Below are positions 28,952-47,126 of a stretch of DNA of 64,000 nucleotides, piece after piece. This DNA is from an uncultured Oceanospirillaceae bacterium (GTDB lineage: Bacteria > Pseudomonadota > Gammaproteobacteria > Pseudomonadales > Balneatricaceae): contig CAJXNY010000005.1 of NCBI GenBank assembly GCA_913057435.1, forward strand, positions 1 through 64,000, given 5' to 3'. The notes under the pieces were generated by a model. The model saw only the letters and a program-made list of their open reading frames with translations, did no database searches and had not been told where the DNA came from. Both the position numbers and the translations under genes were made by a program. Position 1 is the first letter of the stretch, and every line of letters begins with the position of its first letter.

Positions 28952-30358
28952 ATGTCAGAGAAGACTCTGAAACTGATCGAAGAGAACAAAGCACGCTGGA
29001 TCGATATGCGCTTTACCGACTTTAAAGGTAAAGAACAGCACCTGACCATCCCGGTGTCCGACATGGGTGATGACTTCTTTGAAGAAGGCAAAATGTTTGA
29101 CGGCTCTTCTATCACCGGCTGGAAAGGCATCAACGAATCCGACATGATCCTGATGCCGGATGACAGCGCTTCTGTACTGGACCCATTTACTGAAGACGCA
29201 ACCATTATCGTGCGTTGTAATGTTATCGAGCCAGTTACCGGCCAGGGTTATGAGCGTGATCCACGTTCTGTTGCACGTCGCGCTGAAGAATACCTGAAGT
29301 CTACCGGTATCGCTGACAGCGCTATGCTGGGCCCAGAGCCAGAATTCTTCGTCTTTGACGGCGTTGAATGGCATGCAGACATCAGCGGTTGCGGCTACAG
29401 CATCCAGTCTGAAGAAGCATCATGGTCTTCCAACAAGAAGATCGAAGGTGGTAACACCGGTCACCGTCCACGCGTAAAAGGCGGTTACTTCCCGGTTCCA
29501 CCAATCGACTCCCTGCACGACATGCGTGGCGCCATGTGTGACGCGATGGAAGCCATGGGCCTGACCATCGAAGTACATCACCACGAAGTTGCTACCGCTG
29601 GCCAGTGTGAGATCGGCGTACGTGGTAACACCCTGGTAGAGAAGGCTGACGAAGTTCAGATCCTGAAATACTGTGTACACAACGTGGCGCACGCTTACGG
29701 CAAAACCGCTACCTTTATGCCTAAACCACTGGTTGGCGATAACGGTTCCGGCATGCACGTTCACCTGTCCATGAACAAAGATGGCCAGAACATCTTCCAT
29801 GGCGATGGTTACGGCGGCCTGAGCGAAACGGCTCTGTTCTACATCGGTGGTATCGTTAAGCACGCTAAAGCGCTGAACGCACTGTGTAACCCGGCAACCA
29901 ACTCCTACAAGCGTCTGGTACCAGGTTTCGAAGCACCAGTAATGCTGGCGTACTCCGCCCGTAACCGCTCCGCTTCCCTGCGTATCCCTTACACCACGTC
30001 CCCTAAAGCGGCACGTGTTGAAGCACGCTTCCCGGACCCAGCAGCTAACCCATACCTGTGCTTCGCAGCACTGCTGATGGCTGGCCTGGACGGTATCCAG
30101 AACAAGATCCACCCTGGCGACCCAGCTGATAAAGACCTGTACGACCTGCCAGCTGAAGAAGCAGCGGAGATCCCACAGGTTGCAGCGTCCCTGGACGAAG
30201 CCCTGGCTGCGCTGGAAGCAGACCGCGAATTCCTGACTAAAGGCGGTGTATTCACCGACGACATGCTGGATGCGTACATCAGCATCAAGCGTGACGAACT
30301 GGCGCAGGTCAACATGACCACGCACCCAGTTGAATTCGATCTGTACTACTCCGTATAA
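28952..30358 (+). CDS. glnA: Glutamine synthetase type I
   Basis: A 468-residue dodecameric glutamine synthetase of the adenylylated (GSI-beta) class. Seen are FDGSSITGW, the metal-binding [25 protein letters not shown], the ATP-binding [17 protein letters not shown], the glutamate-flap region [18 protein letters not shown] and [20 protein letters not shown]. Tyr397 in KDLYDLP is the adenylylation site, at the same number as in E. coli. Codon use is strongly biased. Expression is controlled by the sigma-54 promoter and NtrC-like sites upstream, and a terminator separates it from ntrBC. Confidence 0.99.
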
Positions 30359-30390
30359 GAGTGTAGACAGCCAGTAAGTGTGAGATTGGC

Positions 30391-30423
30391 AAAAGCCCTC
30401 TGAGTAATCAGAGGGCTTTTTTA
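30391..30423. terminator. Terminator after glnA
   Basis: AAAAGCCCTCTGA-GTAA-TCAGAGGGCTTTTTT (30391-30422): a 13-bp stem counting A-T pairs, then a T-tract. It would separate high-level glnA transcription from ntrBC, with limited read-through. Confidence 0.93.
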
Positions 30424-30456
30424 GTGCCTGCCGTTTATCACAGACCACCCCGCTTC

Positions 30457-30503
30457 GCACCACTTCAGCCCCTGCGCACCACTATCACGCACCAATATGG
30501 TGC
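30457..30503. promoter_or_regulatory. NtrC operator cluster before ntrB
   Basis: GCACCAATATGGTGC (30489-30503) is a perfect NtrC palindrome. Two more GCACCA half-sites lie at 30457-30462 and 30476-30481 in the same orientation. The cluster is 119-165 bases before the ntrB ATG and between it and the glnA terminator. In enterics phosphorylated NtrC represses glnLG from such a site; the same autoregulation is likely here. Confidence 0.82.
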
Positions 30504-30621
30504 AGCACTGGACAACTCCGGCTACACTAAAGCGACTAACCTCCCAGTCCGCGCTGCTCTGACAATATCGCCCACCTGGTTTACTTCTTGCAGTGCATAA
30601 ACCAATCAGGACGAACACCGG

Positions 30622-31698
30622 ATGATCATGCAGCATAAACAGATTCTCGATAACCTCACCGCCGCGGTGATACTGCTCGATAGCCAGCTGCAGATTGACT
30701 ACATCAATCCGGCTGCAGAAATGCTGCTGGAAGCCAGCGCCCGCCAGTTACGCCGCCGCCCTATTGACGAGTGGTTCTGCGACCAGCCAGAAGATCTGGA
30801 GGTACTGCGCTCATCACTGCACAACAATCACCCCTACACCTGCCGTGAAGCCAAATTGCGCACCCAGGGCCAGCATGCCCTGACTGTCGATTACAGCGTG
30901 AATCCAATCATTCAGCAGGGCCACAGCTTCTTACTGATTGAACTACAGGCCAAAGACCGGCTGATCCGCATCGAACGTGAAGAAGAACTGATCAGCCGCC
31001 ACGAAACCGCCAAAACCCTGGTCCGCGGACTGGCCCATGAGATAAAAAACCCGCTCGGCGGACTGCGCGGTGCCGCCCAGCTGCTGGAGCGTGAACTGCC
31101 CGATGAAAGCCTGCATGACTACACCCGGGTAATCATCGAAGAGGCCGATCGACTTCGTAATCTGGTCGACCGGTTACTGGGCCCCCGTACCCTGCCCACA
31201 ATTACCCAGGTGAATATCCATGCGGTACTGGAGCGGGTCAGCAGCCTGATTGACGCCGAATGCGCGGGCACTATAAAGCTGGAACGGGACTATGACCCCA
31301 GCATTCCCGAGATCACTGGCGATTCCGAGCAGCTTATCCAGGCCATACTTAACATCATGCGTAACAGCATGCAGGCGCTACAGCTCAACCACATAGCAGC
31401 CCCCTGCATCCGTTTGCGCACCCGCGCCCTGCGTCAGTTCACCCTGGCCAGCGAGCGCCACCGGCTGGTGTGCTGTGTCGAAATCAGCGACAACGGCCCC
31501 GGTATCCCCGAGGACATCCTGCACAAGATTTTCTACCCCATGGTCAGCGGCAACCCGCAAGGCAGTGGACTGGGACTGTCCATCGCACAGTCCATCATCA
31601 ACCAGCATCAGGGACTGATCGAATGCAGCTCCGAAGCTGGCAGCACCTGCTTCAAACTTTTTATTCCACTGGAGCCTAATCATGACAACGGCCGCTAA
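30622..31698 (+). CDS. glnL: Nitrogen-regulation sensor kinase NtrB
   Basis: A 358-residue cytoplasmic histidine kinase. An N-terminal PAS domain (ILDNLTAAVILLDSQLQIDYINPAAEMLL) is followed by the dimerisation domain with phospho-accepting His139 in GLAHEIKNPLGGLRGAAQLL and the ATPase domain with N-box (LNIMRNSMQAL), CVEISDNGPGIPEDI and GSGLGLSIAQSI. It responds to PII (GlnB) and controls NtrC phosphorylation. The stop lies 17 bases inside ntrC, so the two are coupled. Confidence 0.97.
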   Translation: MIMQHKQILDNLTAAVILLDSQLQIDYINPAAEMLLEASARQLRRRPIDEWFCDQPEDLEVLRSSLHNNHPYTCREAKLRTQGQHALTVDYSVNPIIQQGHSFLLIELQAKDRLIRIEREEELISRHETAKTLVRGLAHEIKNPLGGLRGAAQLLERELPDESLHDYTRVIIEEADRLRNLVDRLLGPRTLPTITQVNIHAVLERVSSLIDAECAGTIKLERDYDPSIPEITGDSEQLIQAILNIMRNSMQALQLNHIAAPCIRLRTRALRQFTLASERHRLVCCVEISDNGPGIPEDILHKIFYPMVSGNPQGSGLGLSIAQSIINQHQGLIECSSEAGSTCFKLFIPLEPNHDNGR

Positions 31699-33100
31699 CG
31701 TCTGGATCGTCGATGACGATCGCTCAATCCGCTGGGTACTGGAAAAAGCACTGAGTGGCTCCGGTATCACCACCCGCAGCTTCGAAGATGCCGCCAGTCT
31801 GCTGCAGGAGCTTGAGCAGCAGCAGCCAGACACCATTATTAGCGATATCCGCATGCCGGGCATCGACGGGCTGGAACTGCTACAACGCCTACAAGACAAC
31901 TATCCCGACCTGCCAGCAATTATCATGACCGCCCACTCAGACCTGGATTCCGCCGTCGCGTCTTACTCTGGTGGGGCCTTTGAATACCTGCCCAAGCCCT
32001 TTGATATCGACGAAGCCGTCACCCTGGTACAGCGGGCCATCACCCATGCCAAAGAACAGCAACAGGCCAGCCGTGAAGTGCCAGCCCCGCAGGCCGACAT
32101 CATCGGCGAAGCACCGGCCATGCAGGAAGTATTCCGCGCCATCGGGCGGCTGTCCCAGTCCAATATCACCGTCCTGATCAATGGCGCGTCAGGCACCGGT
32201 AAAGAGCTGGTCGCCCATGCCCTGCACCGCCATAGCCCACGGGCAGCCGCGCCGTTTATTCCGCTGAATATGGCGGCGATCCCCCATGACCTGATTGAGT
32301 CAGAGCTGTTCGGCCATGAAAAAGGCGCGTTTACCGGTGCCGCCAGCACCCGCCAGGGTCGGTTTGAACAGGCTAACCATGGCACCCTGTTCCTGGATGA
32401 GATTGGCGATATGCCCGCCGATGCTCAGACCCGGCTGTTACGGGTACTGGCCGATGGTGAATTTTTCCGCGTCGGAGGACATACAGCAGTACAGGTCGAT
32501 GTGCGGATTATCGCCGCCACCCACCAGAACCTGGAAAAGCTGGTGCAGGAAGGCCGGTTCCGTGAGGACCTGTTCCACCGCCTTAACGTCATCCGCATCC
32601 ATATCCCCACCCTGTCGGAACGGCGCGAAGATATTCCCGCCCTGACCCGTCACTTCCTTGACCGCTCAGCCAAAGAGCTGGCCATGGAAACCAAAGTTCT
32701 CCACCCCGACACCGCCAGTCTGCTGGCCGAGATGCCCTGGCCGGGTAACGTGCGCCAGCTGGAAAACAGCTGCCGCTGGCTGACCGTGATGGCTTCCGGT
32801 CGCGAAGTACTGATTGAAGACCTGCCACCGGAACTGATGGAGCAGCACAGCGAACAGCAGCCCGTCAGTGATAACTGGCAGCTGGCGCTGCAACGCTGGG
32901 CTGACCAGCAGCTCGGCCGGGGGGAAAGCAACATTCTGGAACAGGCAGTGCCCGTGTTCGAGCGCACCATGATCGAAACCGCCCTCAGGCACACCGCCGG
33001 ACGTCGCCGCGATGCGGCCCTGCTACTGGGCTGGGGCCGTAACACCCTGACCCGAAAAATCAAAGAGCTGGGCATGGACGCTGGCGACGACGACCTGTAG
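31682..33100 (+). CDS. glnG: Nitrogen-regulation response regulator NtrC
   Basis: A 472-residue sigma-54 activator. Receiver domain 1-120 with Asp55 in IISDIRMPG; AAA+ domain (about 140-380) with Walker A GASGTGKE, the sigma-54-contacting loop EKGAFTGA, Walker B GTLFLDEIGD and an arginine-finger region; C-terminal Fis-type helix-turn-helix (HTAGRRRDAALLLGWGRNTLTRKIKEL). It should act at the glnA sites and at its own operator described here. Confidence 0.98.
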   Translation: MTTAANVWIVDDDRSIRWVLEKALSGSGITTRSFEDAASLLQELEQQQPDTIISDIRMPGIDGLELLQRLQDNYPDLPAIIMTAHSDLDSAVASYSGGAFEYLPKPFDIDEAVTLVQRAITHAKEQQQASREVPAPQADIIGEAPAMQEVFRAIGRLSQSNITVLINGASGTGKELVAHALHRHSPRAAAPFIPLNMAAIPHDLIESELFGHEKGAFTGAASTRQGRFEQANHGTLFLDEIGDMPADAQTRLLRVLADGEFFRVGGHTAVQVDVRIIAATHQNLEKLVQEGRFREDLFHRLNVIRIHIPTLSERREDIPALTRHFLDRSAKELAMETKVLHPDTASLLAEMPWPGNVRQLENSCRWLTVMASGREVLIEDLPPELMEQHSEQQPVSDNWQLALQRWADQQLGRGESNILEQAVPVFERTMIETALRHTAGRRRDAALLLGWGRNTLTRKIKELGMDAGDDDL

Positions 33101-34636: not shown

Positions 34637-37246
34637 CTATAACTCACTCAGCACCTGGCGGATGATACGCTGCAAACGCCAGAACTGCTGCCAGATCTCC
34701 CGCCCATCCGCCTCTTTGGCTGCCGCATTCAACGCATGGCTGACCATATCCAGCTCCGGCATCTCATATAACCCCGCCAGACCCACCAGCTGATGGGTGT
34801 GATGGCGGATCACCGTACGGTCCAGCGGCGAAAGGGCCTGGCCAATCCCGTCGATTTGCCCCAGCAACTCAGTACTGAAAGCCTCACGACTAATACGGTA
34901 ACGATCCAGTATTCCAGGTAAGCCATCCGACTGTGCTTCAGGTGCTGCTAAACCGGCTATATAACGGTTCAGGTGACCAATCAGTACCTTATCTTCAATC
35001 GGCTTAAGCAGTACTTCGTTGACACCGGCCTGATGCAGCACCTCATGCTCACGCTCGACCACATTAGCCGTCAATGCCAGAATCGGATGATTAAAGCCAG
35101 CCTGACGGATCTGCCGGGTCGCTTCAATACCATCCATTTCCGGCATATGTACATCCATCAATATCAGATCCGGGCTGAATTCACAGGCACAGGCCACCGC
35201 CTCAACCCCGGTCACCACCTCCAGCACCTCGGCTCCGGCCTCCTCCAGTACGCGACGAATCAACAGCCGGTTAAAGTTATTATCTTCAGCAACCAGCACC
35301 CGGATTTGCCGACTGAGCAGAGCTGTATCCGCAACCTCCATGCTCGGCACTTCAGAGTTACCGGTCAGATGAATCAGCGTGTCGGTGGACAATGGCTTAT
35401 GTAACACCCGCACCGCCACTCCTTCGGGCAGTTCCAGCTGAGCACCACTGAGCACCACCAGCAACCCTGCATACGTCTGACGCACAGCGCGGACACTGTA
35501 AAGCAGTCCAGAATTACCCACATCACCAGCCGTCTGATACAGCAGTACCAGATCCCAGTCAGCCTGTAATAGCTGCAGTGACAACTCGTCCATATCGCGG
35601 CAATACACCACCTCTGCCGCCACGGCTAACAGCTGATAGCCAAGCCCCTGACGCTGGGATGGGTGCTCAACCAGTACCAGTACCCGCTTATACACCGGTC
35701 GGAACGGTCCCACACGCGGGCCCTGCACCACCTCAAACGGGATATCCAGCCAGATACGGGTGCCATCGCCCTCTCTGGACACCAGATCAATCTTCCCTCC
35801 CATCAGCTCTGTCAGATGACGGGAGATCGCCAGCCCCAGACCGGAACCGCCATAGCGACGGGTGATGGAGGTATCCGCCTGAACGAAAGCCGAGAACAGT
35901 GTTTCCAGTTGCGCGTCCGGTATCCCAATCCCGGTATCACGCACCTCCAGCCGGATCCCACCATCAAGGCTGCGGACCTGTACTTCCACCGCGCCCTGAT
36001 CAGTAAATTTAATCGCATTACTGATCAGGTTCACCAGAACCTGCCGTAACCGCGCCGCATCACCCCGGACTCTTTCTGGCAGACGCGGGTCCAGCACCAG
36101 TACCAGCTCAATGCGCTTTTCATGGGCCACTGGCGACAGCATCTCAACGACCTCTTCGACACAGCGCTGCAGATAGAAGGGCAATGACTCAAGGGTAATA
36201 GCACGGGACTCAAGCCGGGAGAAGTCCAGAATATCGTCGATGACCGATAACAGCATGCCGGAGGTCAGATTGATAATACGAGAGAATTCCTGCTGCTCAG
36301 AGTTCAGGCCTGATTGCTGCAACATGCGGGAAAAACCAATCACTGAGGTTAACGGCGTACGCAGCTCATGACTCATCCGGGCCAGGAACTCATCCTTGGC
36401 CTGGTTTGCCCGATCTGCACGCTCACGCGCACGGCTGAGGGCATTATTGTTACGTTTGATGTCTGCCATACTGCGGCGCAGTGCCCGAGTCTGCTCATTT
36501 ACCCGCAGCTCAAGCATGGTGTTGGAGTCTTCTACTGTCTGTGCCATGCGGTTAAACCCGCGCAACAGCAGCTGCATTTCACCGTAGCCCTCATCGTCAG
36601 CTCGACGCCACAGCTGGCCTGCTTCAATATCTTTGACCACTCGGGTCAGATCTTCCACCGGCTCAATAATATTGCTGCTAAAGCGTGACACCAGTAGCAG
36701 ACTGCCTACCATTCCTGCCAGCAGCAGCAGTACACCTTTGGCAATAATCTGTTGCTGCTGTTGCTGGGTCGCCGCCTGCGACATTACCACCGCCACCCAG
36801 CCAATAATGTCTTTGCTATTATCCGGATCTGAGAATTCAGGCAGATCCTGAAAGGCGATGCCGCTGGTCGTCACCGGGGCAAGGAAGTAGCCATACCCCC
36901 CTTCAAGGCGAGGGTAGACGGCGTGTCTGCTGATTGAAAACTGGCTACCAGAGCGCCGAACCAGCTCAGAAAACTGCTGATCCAGCACCACAATTTCCAG
37001 CACATCGTCTTCATTCAGCTGCGCCCTCACCTGGTTACCCAGCATATCCCGGTTACCCGTCAGTAAGCCAAATTCCACTGACACAGCCAGTAATCGAGCG
37101 ATGGTTTGCCCTCGCGCCGTCAGCCCCTGGTCGGTATCTGCCACCCGGCTCTGGATAAAATAGATCCCCAGCGCAAAGGCAAAGACCAGTAGCGGAAGCA
37201 CCGCAACCACCAGCATCTGCTGCTTAATACTGCCCCAGCGGATCAT
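34637..37246 (-). CDS. Hybrid sensor histidine kinase, BarA-like, with HPt domain
   Basis: An 869-residue hybrid kinase. Order: TM1 (about 11-32), periplasmic sensor (about 35-165), a six-Gln run at 161-166, TM2 (about 168-187), HAMP (about 190-242), coiled coil, HisKA with His293 in RMSHELRTPL, HATPase with NLISNAIKFTDQG, VRDTGIGIPD and GSGLGLAISRHL, a degenerate receiver without an acceptor Asp, an intact receiver with Asp698 in LILMDVHMPEMDG, and an HPt domain with His818 in THQLVGLAG. This is the phosphorelay architecture of BarA/GacS. No DNA-binding response regulator is adjacent, so its target is elsewhere. Start and preceding stop overlap (ATGA), coupling it to the periplasmic binding protein gene. 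Confidence 0.93.
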   Translation of the reverse strand: MIRWGSIKQQMLVVAVLPLLVFAFALGIYFIQSRVADTDQGLTARGQTIARLLAVSVEFGLLTGNRDMLGNQVRAQLNEDDVLEIVVLDQQFSELVRRSGSQFSISRHAVYPRLEGGYGYFLAPVTTSGIAFQDLPEFSDPDNSKDIIGWVAVVMSQAATQQQQQQIIAKGVLLLLAGMVGSLLLVSRFSSNIIEPVEDLTRVVKDIEAGQLWRRADDEGYGEMQLLLRGFNRMAQTVEDSNTMLELRVNEQTRALRRSMADIKRNNNALSRARERADRANQAKDEFLARMSHELRTPLTSVIGFSRMLQQSGLNSEQQEFSRIINLTSGMLLSVIDDILDFSRLESRAITLESLPFYLQRCVEEVVEMLSPVAHEKRIELVLVLDPRLPERVRGDAARLRQVLVNLISNAIKFTDQGAVEVQVRSLDGGIRLEVRDTGIGIPDAQLETLFSAFVQADTSITRRYGGSGLGLAISRHLTELMGGKIDLVSREGDGTRIWLDIPFEVVQGPRVGPFRPVYKRVLVLVEHPSQRQGLGYQLLAVAAEVVYCRDMDELSLQLLQADWDLVLLYQTAGDVGNSGLLYSVRAVRQTYAGLLVVLSGAQLELPEGVAVRVLHKPLSTDTLIHLTGNSEVPSMEVADTALLSRQIRVLVAEDNNFNRLLIRRVLEEAGAEVLEVVTGVEAVACACEFSPDLILMDVHMPEMDGIEATRQIRQAGFNHPILALTANVVEREHEVLHQAGVNEVLLKPIEDKVLIGHLNRYIAGLAAPEAQSDGLPGILDRYRISREAFSTELLGQIDGIGQALSPLDRTVIRHHTHQLVGLAGLYEMPELDMVSHALNAAAKEADGREIWQQFWRLQRIIRQVLSEL

Positions 37247-38190
37247 TTCATAGACTCCTTGAGGCGATGGGTAAGCACCATATCAAGCGGTAATTTCAGC
37301 TGCAGTGAACGGGCAGCTACGCGATTGGTTATCACTGAGAAATAACGCGGGAACTGTGCCACAGGCAGCGGCCCGACAGAACTGTTATAGCGCTGCAGGA
37401 ATTCTCCTCCCTGGCGACCCAGCTGAGCTGGCGAAGAATGCACCGCCGCAACGGCACCCGCTTCAACATACTTACGAGAGAAGCCGATCAGTGGCACCCG
37501 CTGCCGATAGGCAATATAGAGAATCCATTTGGCTGTGGTGCGGTTAAACACCGCCTGATCGGGCAGCGGAATAAAAATATCACTGCGCTCAATCAGTGGC
37601 TGCAGGCGCTTGACCGGGTTATCCACTTTACCCAGGGAGCTATACACCAGCTCAAACTGGAACTTATAAGCCGCCTTTTTCAGCGCTGCCAGCCGGGCCT
37701 GAGTTGCCTGGCCTACCACTGTGCCGACTGTGCGTGCCGCCGGTGAGATCAGCCGTGCCAGCGCCAGCTGCCGCTCCAGCGGCTGATCCACATAAATCGC
37801 TGATAACTGATCCCGTCGAGGTCGCCAGCGCTCCCCGTACTGCTCCAGCAGCCCTCGCCATGAGGGTTCAGGAAGAAAGGTCCCCAACAGCCGTCGGCTG
37901 ACCGGTAACGCCTGTAGCAGGTACTCAGTCGCCGCGACCCCCACCGAAACGGTAATATCAGTGCGAGAAGCCATCAGGCGGGGGTCGGCCTTGAGTTGAG
38001 ATATCGTAACGACCTGCAATTCACCAGCATAATGTGTGCTCATCGCATCCGTAACATCACGGTAGATAGGGCTATCCTGGCTGACAACCACAAGACTGCT
38101 GGCCAGCACCCCAGGTGCAGCCAGACAGAATAGTAACAGCAGCCCCCCCCACCCCTGGCGAAAGTAGCTGCACAGTTCCTGGAACTTCAT
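37243..38190 (-). CDS. ABC-type substrate-binding protein (PF04392/TrpX-like) without transporter
   Basis: A 315-residue precursor with a signal peptide (cleaved near GVLASS). The mature part has the two-lobe, ABC_sub_bind-like pattern: SLVVVSQDSPIYRDVTDAM, LLGTFLPEPSW, LSAIYVDQPLERQLALARLI, RSDIFIPLPDQAVFNRTTAKWILYIAYRQRVPLIGFSRKYVEAGAVAAVHSSPAQLGRQGGEFLQRY. No ABC permease or ATPase gene is near. Instead it overlaps a hybrid kinase and follows a TonB-dependent receptor, so I infer that it presents a ligand to the kinase periplasmic domain rather than to a permease. Ligand unknown. Confidence 0.82.
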   Translation of the reverse strand: MKFQELCSYFRQGWGGLLLLFCLAAPGVLASSLVVVSQDSPIYRDVTDAMSTHYAGELQVVTISQLKADPRLMASRTDITVSVGVAATEYLLQALPVSRRLLGTFLPEPSWRGLLEQYGERWRPRRDQLSAIYVDQPLERQLALARLISPAARTVGTVVGQATQARLAALKKAAYKFQFELVYSSLGKVDNPVKRLQPLIERSDIFIPLPDQAVFNRTTAKWILYIAYRQRVPLIGFSRKYVEAGAVAAVHSSPAQLGRQGGEFLQRYNSSVGPLPVAQFPRYFSVITNRVAARSLQLKLPLDMVLTHRLKESMK

Positions 38191-38288
38191 CAGCTTAAAC
38201 GCATTCCGATGCTCTCCGCTTGAATACAGGTAGCAATCAACCCAGTTGTCTCATGGTCCAGTCAGTAACAACATAACGACGCCAGCCT

Positions 38289-40382
38289 TCACCGTGTTTT
38301 CACCAACAACTGTAAATACACCCGACGTTCAAATTCGTTATACGGGTAAAACTCGGCATACTCCTTATTTAACAGGTTCTGTACCAGCAAGCTGCCCTCA
38401 ATCTGCCACCGGGCATCCTGTACCAGCTGATGCGAAACCTTCATATCCGTACGCCACCAGCTACCACGCCTCCCACCTTCAGGCCAGGCTGTTTCGCTCA
38501 TAAAATAGTTAGCGAGACTATAGCCCCAACGAGCATCCAATTGTTGATCGTACAGTAAAGAAAATGTATGTGCAGGCGCTGCAGCATCCAGCGTCTGTAA
38601 ACCGCCGCGACTTGCCTCTAAGGGGAAAAGATCCTCTCCCTGAAAGTAACCACCACGAACCTCCTGGTAACCGTAGGCCAGCCACAGCATGGCATTCTGC
38701 CAGGGCTGCAGTTTTAACTGCATATCAAGCCCGCGGTTGCGCCAGCTGGCGATATTCTCTTTGCGACTATAATAACCGTCATAGTCGGCTGGCTGCTGAA
38801 TATAAAAGCGGTCGCGCATGCCATCATCAATCTGCTCATAATATAGCCGCAGGTCAAGTTCCAGCATACCCGAGTCTGAATGCCAGTAACTACCCAGCTC
38901 GAAAGAGTCCAGTTGCTCCGGCTTAAGGTCCGGGTTATTCACGGTCAGAACATTCCATGGCTGACCCTCTTTGTTATAGATGGTGGACTGCAAGTTAGCG
39001 TCCAGTAAAGAGGGCATACGGTAGGCACGGGTATACGAAGCACGCAACGCCGAATGGTCAGAAAGCAGATAGTTCAGCGCTAAGCGGGGAGACAGACGGG
39101 TTGCCTGAACCGCTGAAAAATGCTCGACCATTCCCCCCATATTCCAGACCATCCGGGCATTGTGTTGCCACTGAATATTGCCAAACAGCGTGCTGCGTTC
39201 TTCATTGATACGCTGTTCGCCAGTCAGCTGCATGGGGCTGTTCACCGTCTCCCAGCGATAGGCAGACCCCGCCATCAAACTTAATGAAGGGGCCAGATGG
39301 TGAGTGTATTGCAGTTCAAGCTCTGTCATTGTCGCCCGGCCACGAGCCGAATCAGACCAGACCGTCACGCCATCCATGTGCTGCAAACGGGCCAGCTGCA
39401 AGGCAGTTTCGATGTCCTGTACAGTGGAAAACTCACGTAAGATCAGCTCTTCAGCTTTAAACTCAGACATGGAAAGATCAAGCAGACTGCGGCTCAGCGT
39501 CAGCTGTAATGCCTGATCGGCATCCAGCTCCCGCCCCCAGCGCAGATACTGATAGTTACTCTGAATATCAGCAGGCACAAACTGCCGGTCGGGCTTATCA
39601 GCACCGCCGACCAGCATATCAACCTGATTGATACCCAGCTGCAAATCCAGGCTGTCCTGCAGGGTCGGGGTAAAGGCAACCGAAAGGTTAGCAAAGCGGA
39701 TCGTCTGCCGATCTTTAAACAGCTCACTACCGGCATTAGCCCGGTAGCCGGTGCTCAGCCGGTAACTCAGATCATTGCTGTAACCGGCATGACGCGCTTC
39801 AAACAGTTGCTGCTGCTGTGAACCACCCAGCAGTCGAGCACTGCTGCCACGCTCAGCCAGCGGACTACGGGTAACGATATTAATCGCCCCCAGAAATGCA
39901 TTAGAACCATAGACCGGCACATTGGAGCCACGCACCACTTCGATATGGTCAATATCATCCAGCGACAGACCCAGCCCACTCCAGTCAACAGTCGACAGAA
40001 AGGGCAGGTAGATAGAGCGGCCATCGACCATCACTTCAAGGTTATCAGGGAAGTTATCTGCAACCCCATGGTAGGTAACCATTGAGGTATTACGCGTAAC
40101 GGACAGCGACTGCATTCCCGGCACCAGCCGGAACAGATCTTCAACCCGGTATATGGGGGCCGCATCAATCATTGCACGATCAATAATCGTTACCGCTGCT
40201 GGCGCCTTTGTCAGACGTTGCGACATTCGGGTTGCGGAAACAACCTGCGGAATATCCGTCAGAAAATCCAGTTCCGTATAGTGTTCGGGGTAACTGTCAG
40301 CCAGCGCCACACGCGTTGCCAATGCGCAGCCGAGAAAGCAAGCAAGGCGAAAACGGTTCGCCAACCAGACCAGTTGTTCCAT
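38289..40382 (-). CDS. TonB-dependent outer-membrane receptor
   Basis: A 697-residue precursor with signal peptide (cleavage near RVALADS). A plug domain (about 45-172) reads QVVSATRMSQRLTKAPAAVTIIDRAMIDAAP, LFRLVPGM, YHGVADNFPDNLEVMVDGR and VPVYGSNAFLGAINIVTR; a 22-strand barrel follows. The chosen ATG (40380-40382) gives the best signal peptide; an in-frame ATG at 40421 would add 13 residues. The sequence ends RVYLQLLVKTR rather than at the usual terminal Phe. Substrate unknown; no siderophore genes or Fur box were recognised. First gene of the unit with the binding protein and hybrid kinase, 98 bases apart. Confidence 0.92.
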   Translation of the reverse strand: MEQLVWLANRFRLACFLGCALATRVALADSYPEHYTELDFLTDIPQVVSATRMSQRLTKAPAAVTIIDRAMIDAAPIYRVEDLFRLVPGMQSLSVTRNTSMVTYHGVADNFPDNLEVMVDGRSIYLPFLSTVDWSGLGLSLDDIDHIEVVRGSNVPVYGSNAFLGAINIVTRSPLAERGSSARLLGGSQQQQLFEARHAGYSNDLSYRLSTGYRANAGSELFKDRQTIRFANLSVAFTPTLQDSLDLQLGINQVDMLVGGADKPDRQFVPADIQSNYQYLRWGRELDADQALQLTLSRSLLDLSMSEFKAEELILREFSTVQDIETALQLARLQHMDGVTVWSDSARGRATMTELELQYTHHLAPSLSLMAGSAYRWETVNSPMQLTGEQRINEERSTLFGNIQWQHNARMVWNMGGMVEHFSAVQATRLSPRLALNYLLSDHSALRASYTRAYRMPSLLDANLQSTIYNKEGQPWNVLTVNNPDLKPEQLDSFELGSYWHSDSGMLELDLRLYYEQIDDGMRDRFYIQQPADYDGYYSRKENIASWRNRGLDMQLKLQPWQNAMLWLAYGYQEVRGGYFQGEDLFPLEASRGGLQTLDAAAPAHTFSLLYDQQLDARWGYSLANYFMSETAWPEGGRRGSWWRTDMKVSHQLVQDARWQIEGSLLVQNLLNKEYAEFYPYNEFERRVYLQLLVKTR

Positions 40383-40590
40383 ATCCTGCGATAATCCTGC
40401 CCTGCCAGCGATGGACTCCATTTTACACTCGACCCCGATGGGCTACTGTCGAGCAAAAACCAACTGCCTGGCACTCAATCCTGTGAAATATATCCCGCGG
40501 CGCAGTGTACTCGCTTTGCACCGTTTTATCGCCCGCAGCAATCGATTATGCTGCTCAGATTTATGCCAACGGTTATGGGTAGCCTCGTCA

Positions 40591-43759: not shown

Positions 43760-45169
43760 GTGACTGATACCACCCATAATGCCGCGGCTGCGAGTGCTGA
43801 AAGCGGTCGTAGCAACAATGCCATGTGGTCTGGCCGGATGGCCTTTATCCTTGCCGCCAGCGGCTCTGCCGTTGGTCTGGGCAATATCTGGAAGTTCCCC
43901 TATATCACCGGTGAGAACGGCGGTGCTGCGTTTGTTCTGGTGTACCTGCTCTGTATCGCACTGGTCGGTCTGCCAATTATGGTGGCCGAAGTCGCGCTGG
44001 GCCGTGCCGGACGCAGCAGCCCGATTAACACCATGAAGGCGCTGACCCGTCGCGATGGCCAGTCCAGTAAATGGGTCTTCATCGGCTGGATGGGCATGGC
44101 CGCATCGTTCCTGATTCTGTCGTTCTATTCCGTTATCGGTGGCTGGTCACTGGCCTATGTCGGCAACGCCGCCAGCGGCACCTTTAACGGTGCCAGCAGC
44201 GAAGAGATCGGCGCACTGTTCGGCGGCCTGCTAAGCAGCCCGGGCACGCTGATGATGTGGCACAGTATTTTTATGGTGCTGGTAATCATGATCGTGGCCC
44301 GTGGCATCAGCTCAGGGATGGAAAAGGCGATCAACATCCTGATGCCCATTCTGTTCTTCCTGCTACTGGTCATGGTCGGCTACGCGATGTCGACCAGTGA
44401 ATTTGGCAAAGGTTTCGACTTCCTGTTTAAACCCGATTTCTCCAAGCTGACCACAGACTCCGTACTGACGGCGCTGGGCCATGCCTTCTTCACTCTGTCA
44501 CTGGGCATGGGCGTGATGATGGCGTATGGCTCGTTCCTGCCGAAAAACGTCTCCATCGTCAAAACAGCGGTGACTGTATCCATCGTAGATACCATTGTTG
44601 CCCTGGCAGCAGGCCTGGCCATCTTCCCACTGGTATTTGCTAATGGACTGGAACCCACCGCAGGCCCGGGCCTGATCTTCCAGACCCTGCCACTGGCCTT
44701 TGGCAAGATGGGCGGCGGCACGGTATTCGGTACTCTGTTCTTCGCATTGCTGCTGATAGCTGCGGTTACCTCAGCTATCTCCATGATGGAGCCCGTCGTT
44801 GAATGGCTGGAAGAGCAGAAAGGCATCTCTCGCCGGACCGGCGCGCTGATCGGCGGTATCTCGATCTGGATCCTGGGTATTGCGACCGTACTGTCATTCA
44901 ATGAGTGGGCTGATTTCCACCCGCTGAACTTCCTGCCTGCCTTTGAAGGCAAAACCTTCTTCGATATCTTCGATTACCTGACGGCCAATATCATGATGCC
45001 GCTGGGCGGCCTGATGATCGTTGGCTACGTCGGCTGGGTGATGAAGCGTGAAACTCTGGAGAACGAACTGGTGCTGGATCGCGGCGCCTCATTCAACCTG
45101 CTGATGTTTGTCATGCGTTACGTTGCCCCGGCACTGGTGCTGGTGGTGTTCCTGTACAACCTGCTGTAA
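43760..45169 (+). CDS. Neurotransmitter:sodium symporter family transporter (copy 1)
   Basis: A 469-residue NSS (SNF) transporter starting at GTG with GGAG 7 bases before it. TM1 carries the signature FILAASGSAVGLGNIWKFPYITGENGGAAF, the unwound helix that binds Na+ and substrate in LeuT/MhsT; about 11 hydrophobic segments follow, with AMSTSEFGKGF, HAFFTLSLGMGVMMAYGSF (TM6) and AVTSAISMMEPVVEWL (TM8). Bacterial members import amino acids, often Trp, Tyr or Leu, with Na+. Very similar to the copy 550 bases downstream. Neighbouring aminotransferase suggests an amino acid catabolic module. Confidence 0.95.
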   Translation: MTDTTHNAAAASAESGRSNNAMWSGRMAFILAASGSAVGLGNIWKFPYITGENGGAAFVLVYLLCIALVGLPIMVAEVALGRAGRSSPINTMKALTRRDGQSSKWVFIGWMGMAASFLILSFYSVIGGWSLAYVGNAASGTFNGASSEEIGALFGGLLSSPGTLMMWHSIFMVLVIMIVARGISSGMEKAINILMPILFFLLLVMVGYAMSTSEFGKGFDFLFKPDFSKLTTDSVLTALGHAFFTLSLGMGVMMAYGSFLPKNVSIVKTAVTVSIVDTIVALAAGLAIFPLVFANGLEPTAGPGLIFQTLPLAFGKMGGGTVFGTLFFALLLIAAVTSAISMMEPVVEWLEEQKGISRRTGALIGGISIWILGIATVLSFNEWADFHPLNFLPAFEGKTFFDIFDYLTANIMMPLGGLMIVGYVGWVMKRETLENELVLDRGASFNLLMFVMRYVAPALVLVVFLYNLL

Positions 45170-45577: not shown

Positions 45578-45722
45578 TGTTGCGCACGTATTTTCCCCTG
45601 TCACCGTACAGGGATCGATGCCCTGTCCCCTGCCCTGAATCGCTGCCGGCGGCTAACCTTGCGCCATACTCAGAATCATGACAGTCCACTGTCAGCTGTA
45701 TTTATCTGTCTGGAGTACTCTG

Positions 45723-47126
45723 GTGAGCGATACCACCCAACCCACTCAAACATCCGCTGCGGGCCGTGCAGGCAATCCGCTCTGGTCATCCCGTCTGGCG
45801 TTTATTCTGGCCGCTACCGGCTCCGCTGTCGGGCTGGGCAATATCTGGAAATTCCCCTATATCACCGGTGAAAACGGTGGTGGCGCTTTTGTGCTGGTTT
45901 ACCTGCTGTGTATCGCCCTGGTCGGCTTACCGATTCTGATCGCGGAGGTGATGCTGGGCCGTCGAGGTCGCCAGAGCCCGATACAGACCATGGCTACTCT
46001 GGCCCGCCAGGATGGCCGCTCACCACGCTGGGCACTGCTCGGCTGGAGCGGCGTACTGGCTGGCTATCTGATCCTGTCGTTCTACGCCGTGATCGGTGGC
46101 TGGTCGATGGCATATGTGGCCAAAGCAGCCAGCGGCGACTTTGCGGGTGCCAGTAGTGATGCTATTGGCGCGATGTTCGGTGGCCTTCTCAGTAACCCGG
46201 CGACGCTAATGCTGTGGCACAGCTTGTTCATGTTGATCGTTATCGCCATTGTGGTACGCGGATTAAAATCAGGCATGGAGAAGGCAATAAACCTGCTGAT
46301 GCCACTGCTGTTTCTGCTGTTACTGGTAATGGTGGGGTACGCGATGTCGACCGATGGCTTCGGCCAGGCGGTGACTTTCCTGTTCCAGCCAGACTTTTCC
46401 AAACTGACCACCGAAGCGGTACTGACCGCGCTGGGCCATGCGTTTTTCACCCTCAGTCTGGCCTCGGGTGCCATGATGGCCTACGGCTCTTTTCTGCCTA
46501 AAGGCTATTCACTGGTCAGCACGGCGGCCACCATTGCCATCGTCGATACGGTTGTCGCCTTGCTGGCAGGGCTGGCAATCTTTCCGCTGGTATTTGCCAA
46601 CGGGCTGGAACCGGCCGCCGGGCCAGGGCTGATCTTCCAGACCCTGCCACTGGCCTTCAGCAATATGGCATTTGGCAGCCTGTTCGGCACGCTGTTTTTC
46701 GTCCTGTTGCTGGTTGCCGCCATCACCTCAGCCATCTCCATGCTGGAGCCCGCGGTCGAATGGCTGGAAGAAAAGAAAGGGATTGGCCGGTTGAAAGGTG
46801 CTTTGCTGGCGGGCGGCTCCGTCTGGTTACTGGGCATCACCACGGTGCTGTCGTTTAACCACTGGTCCGGGCTATACCCACTGGGGTTTTTACCGGTATT
46901 CGAAGGCAAAACTTTTTTTGATATCTTCGATTACCTGACCGCCAATATCATGCTACCGCTGGGCGGGCTGTTTATGGTGACTTACGCGGGCTGGTGCATG
47001 AAACCGCAGGCACTGGCTCAGGCGCTGGAACTGCACCCGGCAACACTGTTTAACGGCCTGCGTTTTGTGATGCGTTTTATCGCCCCACTGCTGGTGATTA
47101 TCGTGTTTATCAATCAGCTGTTCTGA
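45723..47126 (+). CDS. Neurotransmitter:sodium symporter family transporter (copy 2)
   Basis: A 467-residue paralogue of the preceding transporter, with near-identical TM1 (FILAATGSAVGLGNIWKFPYITGENGGGAF), TM6 and TM8 segments and the same C-terminal FEGKTFFDIFDYLTANIM. I chose the GTG at 45723 because GGAG lies 7 bases before it and the resulting N terminus (MSDTTQPT) parallels copy 1 (MTDTTHNA); an upstream in-frame ATG at 45678 adds an unconserved stretch. Differences cluster in loops and the N and C termini, so substrate specificity may be related but regulation differs. Confidence 0.94.
   Translation: MSDTTQPTQTSAAGRAGNPLWSSRLAFILAATGSAVGLGNIWKFPYITGENGGGAFVLVYLLCIALVGLPILIAEVMLGRRGRQSPIQTMATLARQDGRSPRWALLGWSGVLAGYLILSFYAVIGGWSMAYVAKAASGDFAGASSDAIGAMFGGLLSNPATLMLWHSLFMLIVIAIVVRGLKSGMEKAINLLMPLLFLLLLVMVGYAMSTDGFGQAVTFLFQPDFSKLTTEAVLTALGHAFFTLSLASGAMMAYGSFLPKGYSLVSTAATIAIVDTVVALLAGLAIFPLVFANGLEPAAGPGLIFQTLPLAFSNMAFGSLFGTLFFVLLLVAAITSAISMLEPAVEWLEEKKGIGRLKGALLAGGSVWLLGITTVLSFNHWSGLYPLGFLPVFEGKTFFDIFDYLTANIMLPLGGLFMVTYAGWCMKPQALAQALELHPATLFNGLRFVMRFIAPLLVIIVFINQLF

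Follow-up and report, generated by a model that had tools for sequence, protein, structure and literature searches.

Do a TonB-dependent receptor (TBDR), a substrate-binding protein (SBP) and a sensor kinase that are encoded side by side act as one receptor across the cell envelope? The question is raised by three consecutive minus-strand genes in a 64,000-nucleotide stretch of DNA (contig CAJXNY010000005.1, positions 1 to 64,000, hereafter the window) from the 4.76 Mb genome of an uncultured Oceanospirillaceae bacterium. These are a TBDR (38289–40382), an orphan SBP of family PF04392, TrpX-like and of type I fold (37243–38190; from Pfam, predicted structure and neighbourhood), and a hybrid histidine kinase of 869 amino acids with the architecture of BarA (34637–37246; from Pfam and NCBIfam). 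A preliminary description of this DNA had listed the same three genes, an account borne out by the open reading frame (ORF) listing, the Pfam matches and a check of the sequence, and had proposed that ligand entering through the receptor is captured by the SBP and presented to the kinase, with phosphotransfer to an unlinked regulator, for which GacA-like ones were put forward. That interpretation gains from the conservation of the unit, from an SBP that does not look to be of the ABC-transport kind, and from a sensor that is kept under swapped outputs; a GacA-like regulator is not supported in this organism. Our own reading, to which we give a probability of about 0.68, is that the trio forms a three-gene envelope-spanning receptor, paralogous to a system found at the barA locus.

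Whether the three genes rarely occur together had been set as the test of their forming a single unit, and counts among relatives show that they often do. Matches to the SBP are present in 32 of 57 relatives of the window genome, and 25 of the 34 loci around the better matches (L033–L066) encode a TBDR, an SBP and a sensor kinase, the others having a sensor kinase without TBDR (two), a TBDR and SBP with a NarX-type kinase (two), ABC genes (four) or a kinase without a recognised sensor (one). At the close loci from the window's own family (L033–L055) the kinase is present in 23 of 23 cases and the TBDR also in 22, in the same gene order. Among named organisms the nearest SBP locus is that of Marinobacterium arenosum (57% identity), followed by Neptuniibacter, Pontibacterium and Amphritea, and the trio is found at 32 of the 36 named-organism loci, with three lacking the TBDR and one having a cut kinase and no TBDR.

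The pattern extends across the class Gammaproteobacteria, where an SBP profile matches 88 of 369 genomes at 1e-6. From 106 SBP matches we fetched 80 loci in 75 genomes, the remainder being 24 weaker matches and two of G000. What follows the SBP at these 80 loci is a sensor kinase in 63 cases, a sensor-GGDEF protein in four and a sensor of NarX type in one, together with four sensors cut by a contig or ORF end, one kinase without a recognised sensor, and seven loci with none recognised; a TBDR precedes the SBP at 59. A search that started from the sensor gave 107 matches of at least 70 bits, and an SBP lies within 400 bp of 69 of them and of 41 of the 49 that reach 150 bits; for 71 of the top 80 SBPs a sensor is equally close. 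In a control of 20 sensor sites without SBP, one of them (L225) without a kinase ORF, an SBP was found at 0 of 20 even at 8 bits. Both linkage surveys may overstate the association, because kinase-linked SBPs were the source of the SBP profile (A1) and 40 of the 49 rows of the sensor profile (A5) are SBP-linked. A conserved sensing operon with a swappable output is well supported by these counts.

An SBP might instead serve an ABC transporter encoded elsewhere, in which case its kinase neighbourhood would carry no signalling meaning; PF04392 is named for ABC transport, and such ABC units do occur elsewhere in the genome. However, the genome holds two PF04392 matches, and the one outside the window (C1:247696) is followed by its own permease and ATPase. 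Both genes accompany 8 of 8 transport-type PF04392 loci (among which are L061 and L066, the training loci of permease and ATPase models built from two sequences each), whereas a permease is seen at 0 of 143 kinase-type SBP loci. As the preliminary description had noted, the window SBP has no ABC permease or ATPase nearby, and in this it differs from ABC-transport SBPs; no ABC partner is present in the stretches examined, and throughout the class the SBP gene retains a kinase gene as its neighbour. Service to an unlinked transporter is thus strongly disfavoured and, in our view, extremely improbable. The SBP itself matches PF04392 at 33.9 bits (cut-off 25.9), begins with a Sec-type signal recognised by eye, and gives a model of mean pLDDT 94.1 whose fold is closest to 6hnj, 3lkv, 3lft and 6hni (Z 20.7–24.2). 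The comparison indicates a binding-protein fold and not the identity of a ligand, yet ligand binding is suggested by the predicted two-lobed architecture and by the match to 3lft, which was solved with L-Trp.

Variation in the third gene points the same way. At L115 and L119 the TBDR and SBP are followed by a protein of sCache_4-HAMP-PAS-GGDEF-EAL architecture (Pfam), and at L060 and L062 their partners are a kinase of NarX type and a regulator of NarL type; in the L060 kinase Pfam recognises HAMP, scores HisKA_3 below its cut-off and gives no sCache_4, so that the sensor is recognised by an in-house profile only. A PF04392 SBP, a receiver-less sCache_4 kinase and a TBDR also stand together, in another order, at L096 (340–5913; Pfam). 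Since the SBP stays beside the sensor while the output domain changes, the two probably work together, and this is the best indirect evidence for their joint function. In the mechanism that we infer, including ligand and import, contact between SBP and sensor, the sign of regulation, the order of the phosphorelay and the partner regulator, the TBDR would bind an external ligand and probably import it; the periplasmic SBP would capture the ligand and, either loaded or empty, dock on the sCache_4 sensor, changing the activity of the inner-membrane kinase; and phosphate would pass along H293, D698 and H818 to an unlinked response regulator, probably of NarL/LuxR type.

The same three compartments could be joined in another way, with the SBP inhibiting or clamping the kinase from the periplasm and the outer-membrane protein sequestering the SBP without any import of ligand. 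The excerpted text of PMC4887326 describes such a chain of outer-membrane protein, periplasmic mediator and inner-membrane output in YfiB-YfiR-YfiN, and at L094 (4450–9901) three consecutive genes encode a CHASE8 hybrid kinase, a TBDR and a YfiR/HmsC-like protein of family DUF4154, which makes a parallel arrangement of outer membrane, periplasm and kinase with a different mediator family. The window mediator belongs to PF04392 and not to DUF4154, and the output differs from that of YfiB-YfiR-YfiN. Its predicted two-lobed fold and the L-Trp-bound match suggest a ligand, so that a YfiR-like role is decidedly unlikely.

Several observations count against so simple a picture of a single receptor. 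For 21 of the 80 class loci no TBDR was seen at its usual position (17 with none upstream, four at a contig end), and L035, from the window's own genus, has the kinase and lacks the TBDR; the SBP and kinase can therefore do without it. The kinase is kept at L091 and L092 with neither SBP nor TBDR nearby, TBDR-SBP pairs without an adjoining kinase occur at L124 (5484–8643) and L156 (3410–6460), and at L222 (2740–7466) a TBDR is followed by a kinase with a BarA-type sensor and no SBP. Mutual information over 89 paired sequences, an underpowered comparison, gives no SBP-sensor excess over SBP and kinase core (column pairs above z 5: 2 of 50,691 and 11 of 61,217, respectively), and the distance correlation between SBP and core (0.684) nearly equals that between SBP and sensor (0.715). 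Finally, three of the 11 regulator-linked loci in a quick SBP tree lie elsewhere than the window's family, beside which the other eight stand (support 91), as such loci do in the kinase tree described below (support 100).

The missing TBDRs bear on the idea that this gene is a co-regulated uptake function, an output or nutrient target of the system, with the sensing of a periplasmic compound left to the SBP and kinase. SBP-kinase pairs without TBDR at 12 class loci (L111, L112, L127, L135, L140, L141, L149, L152, L154, L165, L166 and L168) speak in its favour. Set against them is the position of the TBDR before the SBP at those 59 of 80 loci, with kinase, GGDEF and NarX-type outputs alike, and a TBDR-SBP distance correlation of 0.775, the highest of six pairs. 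We regard a TBDR of this kind as somewhat unlikely and retain the envelope-spanning receptor; the correlations themselves, which span 0.684 to 0.775 across the six pairs, support the genes being inherited together and not contact between their products.

How the trio relates to BarA is a further question. The label BarA-like, given in the preliminary description, fits the window kinase in its sCache_4-HAMP-HisKA-HATPase-receiver-HPt architecture and fails for its score, its genomic site and the expected partner UvrY. Against the NCBIfam BarA model (NF008318) it scores 520.8–522.1 bits and does not reach the cut-off of 890, which is reached in 0 of the 57 relatives; within its own genome it is the best match to this model and the only sCache_4 match at E 0.001, the second BarA-model match (502.6 bits) not covering the sensor part.

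In other families of the order, solitary BarA genes lie between cysM/rlmD/relA and pdxJ/recO/era (L078–L090). Among the class SBP loci, 39 of 80 adjoin markers of this canonical barA site; both flanks carry markers at 21 loci, and cysM is seen at 32. These are minimum figures because many contigs end; some marker occurs at 41 loci, from which L154 (relA only) and L174 (SBP at a contig end) were excluded. The TBDR-SBP-kinase cluster of relatives thus occupies the barA locus in some lineages. Seven marker loci have the SBP and kinase and no TBDR (L112, L140, L149, L152, L165, L166, L168), and at L137 the kinase precedes the SBP. Two SBP-linked kinases exceed the BarA cut-off, one in G376 (L111, 919.6 bits), where no marker is seen, and one in G277 (L168, 907.5 bits), adjoining rlmD and relA. 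BarA and UvrY searches covered 64 of the 75 class-locus genomes (all except G064, G091, G131, G155, G242, G246, G266, G314, G341, G410 and G416): the best BarA-model match is the SBP-linked kinase in 47 of the 54 genomes with a match at 1e-130, and all 35 marker-locus genomes in that set have a UvrY match at 1e-40, with at least 49% identity in 26. By contrast with these loci, a script count found no barA-site marker in the window, at L033–L071 or at the named-organism loci (L182–L217).

In a first kinase tree, E. coli BarA and other solitary BarA proteins group with kinases of the cysM locus (18 rows, four of them SBP-linked; SH-aLRT 96), and kinases of the window's family group with ten from other families (37 rows; SH-aLRT 100). 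In a second tree, to which 19 more solitary kinases were added (from 19 of 20 solitary sites, L225 having given no kinase ORF) and from which 11 long-branch rows and 14 of the 24 rows of the window's family were left out, the SBP-linked label changes 14 times, at least eight of these changes being forced by starred branches, and sister pairs mix labels, such as L140 (linked) with L219 (solitary). Both are quick trees with long branches and a root that is not fixed, and are to be read as provisional. Solitary BarA, that of E. coli included, is scattered among SBP-linked kinases, suggesting repeated loss of the partner genes; this is a more economical history than one in which identical sets of genes came together several times at a single locus.

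It might be supposed that the trio kinase is the genome's true GacS/BarA orthologue, moved off the cysM locus, and its standing as sole sCache_4 match and best BarA-model match of its own genome would agree with this. Yet the tree separates the clade of the window's family from E. coli BarA and from the majority of the cysM-locus kinases, and in G356 a solitary BarA adjoins cysM (L236) and a trio elsewhere (L103) has a kinase that belongs to the window's clade. In G101, too, a solitary BarA next to cysM (L235) coexists with a TBDR-SBP-GGDEF-EAL locus elsewhere (L119); both genomes carry both, and therefore trio and BarA are distinct there. Together with the UvrY result given below, this makes relocated orthology quite improbable. 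On the sequence evidence, the window trio is best described as a sister paralogue, itself off the barA site, of the TBDR-SBP-BarA system found there. A bolder scenario, which we hold tentatively and at a little short of even odds, is that BarA/GacS was originally tripartite at the cysM-pdxJ site and that Pseudomonas, E. coli and others lost the TBDR and SBP, after which the sensor would have bound its ligand directly, hence the elusive GacS signal; the window trio would be a duplicate with a new output.

As for the regulator, UvrY was not found in the window genome at 1e-40 (52 of 79 candidates scored), and it is matched at that threshold in 22 of 36 genomes of the window's family (G000–G035), with a best identity of 46%; this family thus seems either to lack the Gac system or to have one that has diverged strongly. 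We find no support here for phosphotransfer to a GacA-like regulator, because the window trio is off the barA site and its family has no clear UvrY. In the sister clade, the ten kinases from other families, a NarL/LuxR-type regulator stands beside the SBP or TBDR at nine of ten loci. A profile of these linked NarL regulators matches 48 of the 57 relatives, trio-less genomes included, and four genes in the window genome; as it also matches genomes without the trio, we dropped the naming of a cognate regulator for the window trio.

The sensor pocket offers a further comparison. In a sequence search the sensor of the solitary BarA at L081 matches the GacS structure 5o7j, through which pocket positions were mapped to GacS by residue spacing, with the numbering His97, His124 and His133 given in the excerpt of PMC7695008. 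Solitary BarA sensors have a basic residue at the His97 position in 10 of 12 rows and at the His124 position in 8 of 12; trio sensors of the window's family invariably have Arg at the former (24 of 24) and are basic at the latter in 4 of 24, and those of cysM-locus trios have a basic residue at the former in 17 of 38 and V, L, F, T or I at the latter in 28 of 38. His133 is His in 1 of 12 solitary rows, so that the GacS pocket is poorly kept in solitary BarA too. The pattern would agree with solitary BarA sensors binding the ligand directly and trio sensors receiving it by way of the SBP, and is suggestive only, the solitary rows being interrelated. A model of the sensor (mean pLDDT 78.7, from 22 sequences) has as its top fold matches integrative models of WalK and McpB and a domain of a LapD orthologue, followed by CitA sensors at E 0.008 or worse; 5o7j is not among its best 50 fold matches.

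LuxP-LuxQ, TorT-TorS and NspS-MbaA are SBP-dependent sensor pairs, and the window trio resembles them in having an orphan SBP gene beside that of a transmembrane kinase (or, in such pairs, a GGDEF-EAL protein). It differs in its BarA-type sCache_4 sensor and its PF04392 SBP, and to our knowledge none of those units has a dedicated TBDR. FecA-FecR-FecI carries signals across the envelope from a TBDR, and here too an outer-membrane TBDR would send a signal inward; unlike FecA, however, the proposed carrier is a soluble SBP acting with a kinase, and an STN domain is found in 0 of the 23 TBDRs scanned. With BarA/GacS the window kinase shares its domain architecture, and relatives at the barA locus share the TBDR and SBP, but the window kinase is not beside cysM, scores below the BarA cut-off and has no UvrY match at 1e-40 in its genome; E. 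coli barA has neither a TBDR nor an SBP gene alongside. According to PMC11113362, the gene for an SBP-activated kinase often has the sbp gene as its neighbour. The window trio shows two features of SBP-dependent kinases, an orphan SBP adjoining a kinase and a predicted binding-protein fold. We conclude that the trio is a variant of known SBP-dependent sensing, whose link to BarA/GacS was not expected.

Among the open-access full-text matches listed, there was no published account of a TBDR-SBP-kinase unit or of an SBP and TBDR at the barA locus; PMC7695008, a paper on GacS, contains the word 'TonB' 0 times and describes the GacS ligand as unknown. GacS/BarA governs secondary metabolism, biofilm formation and lifestyle switching, and a TBDR and SBP at the barA locus are a concrete lead on how a signal might reach it. 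If a dedicated TBDR and SBP do supply relatives of GacS/BarA with their signal, the ligand could be sought by ordinary SBP binding screens and by TBDR tests in marine laboratory strains, and not on the kinase domain alone, soluble binding-protein relays would join the signalling routes of TonB receptors across the envelope, and outputs would be exchangeable between a phosphorelay, a transcription factor and c-di-GMP.

Within the window, the TBDR coordinates follow the start chosen in the preliminary description, the longest ORF opening at 40421 (38289–40421). Pfam recognises a Plug and a TonB barrel and no STN domain, and a Sec-type signal and a TonB-box-like DIPQVVSATR are visible by eye. Its best NCBIfam match is the TOL_0244 family (NF053590) at 154.1 bits, short of the cut-off of 645. 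In the excerpt of PMC6304351, TOL_0244 of Thalassolituus oleivorans is up sevenfold on n-C28 relative to Tween 80, and OmpS of Alcanivorax dieselolei is cited as essential for alkane detection; we rejected alkane sensing by this route, the sequence link (154.1 of 645 bits) being weak. Among relatives, two tandem TBDR genes lie upstream of the SBP at L051, L053 and L054, and the TBDR of L041 is split over two reading frames.

In the kinase, Pfam finds a periplasmic sCache_4 sensor (residues 34–166; 36749–37147, like all features here on the minus strand), HAMP (24.6 bits, just under the gathering score of 25), HisKA, HATPase_c, Response_reg and HPt. The putative phospho-acceptor His293 lies in the HisKA motif SHELRTP (36368–36370), the receiver with Asp698 covers residues 650–758 (34973–35299), and the HPt domain with His818 covers residues 788–865 (34652–34885; 22.8 bits, just under its cut-off of 24.6); all three residues stand where expected, in agreement with the active receiver and HPt described earlier. 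The inactive receiver of that description corresponds to a stretch at residues ~516–640 (35327–35701) that is receiver-like by eye, has no Pfam receiver match and carries Tyr570 in place of the acceptor aspartate. Kinases of 757–779 amino acids in the window's family (L042, L047, L048) seem, from their domain positions, to lack it.

The SBP stop and kinase start share an ATGA (37243–37246), an overlap reported earlier and confirmed in the sequence, and the start codon overlaps the SBP stop at 62 of 98 SBP-sensor junctions examined; translational coupling of the two genes may follow from such an arrangement. A gap of 98 bp separates TBDR and SBP. Genes on both sides of the trio run in the opposite direction; the two nearest on each side are, by Pfam, YgjP, an AsnC-type gene, DUF2489 and one without a match, with no FecR- or FecI-like gene among them. 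Promoter and terminator scans of the trio were at or near the shuffled level and are uninformative.

Some minor features deserve mention. The row at L096 also holds a citrate-synthase-like protein of ~270 amino acids, L097 (3029–8594) is similar to it by eye, and the TBDR-SBP pairs of L124 and L156 lie near fabA- and fabB-like genes (by eye). On the plus strand of the window, translations read by eye suggest a glnA-like gene with NtrB-like and NtrC-like genes after it (28952–33100), and two similar sodium:neurotransmitter-symporter-like genes stand in tandem (43760–45169 and 45678–47126), likely the result of a duplication.

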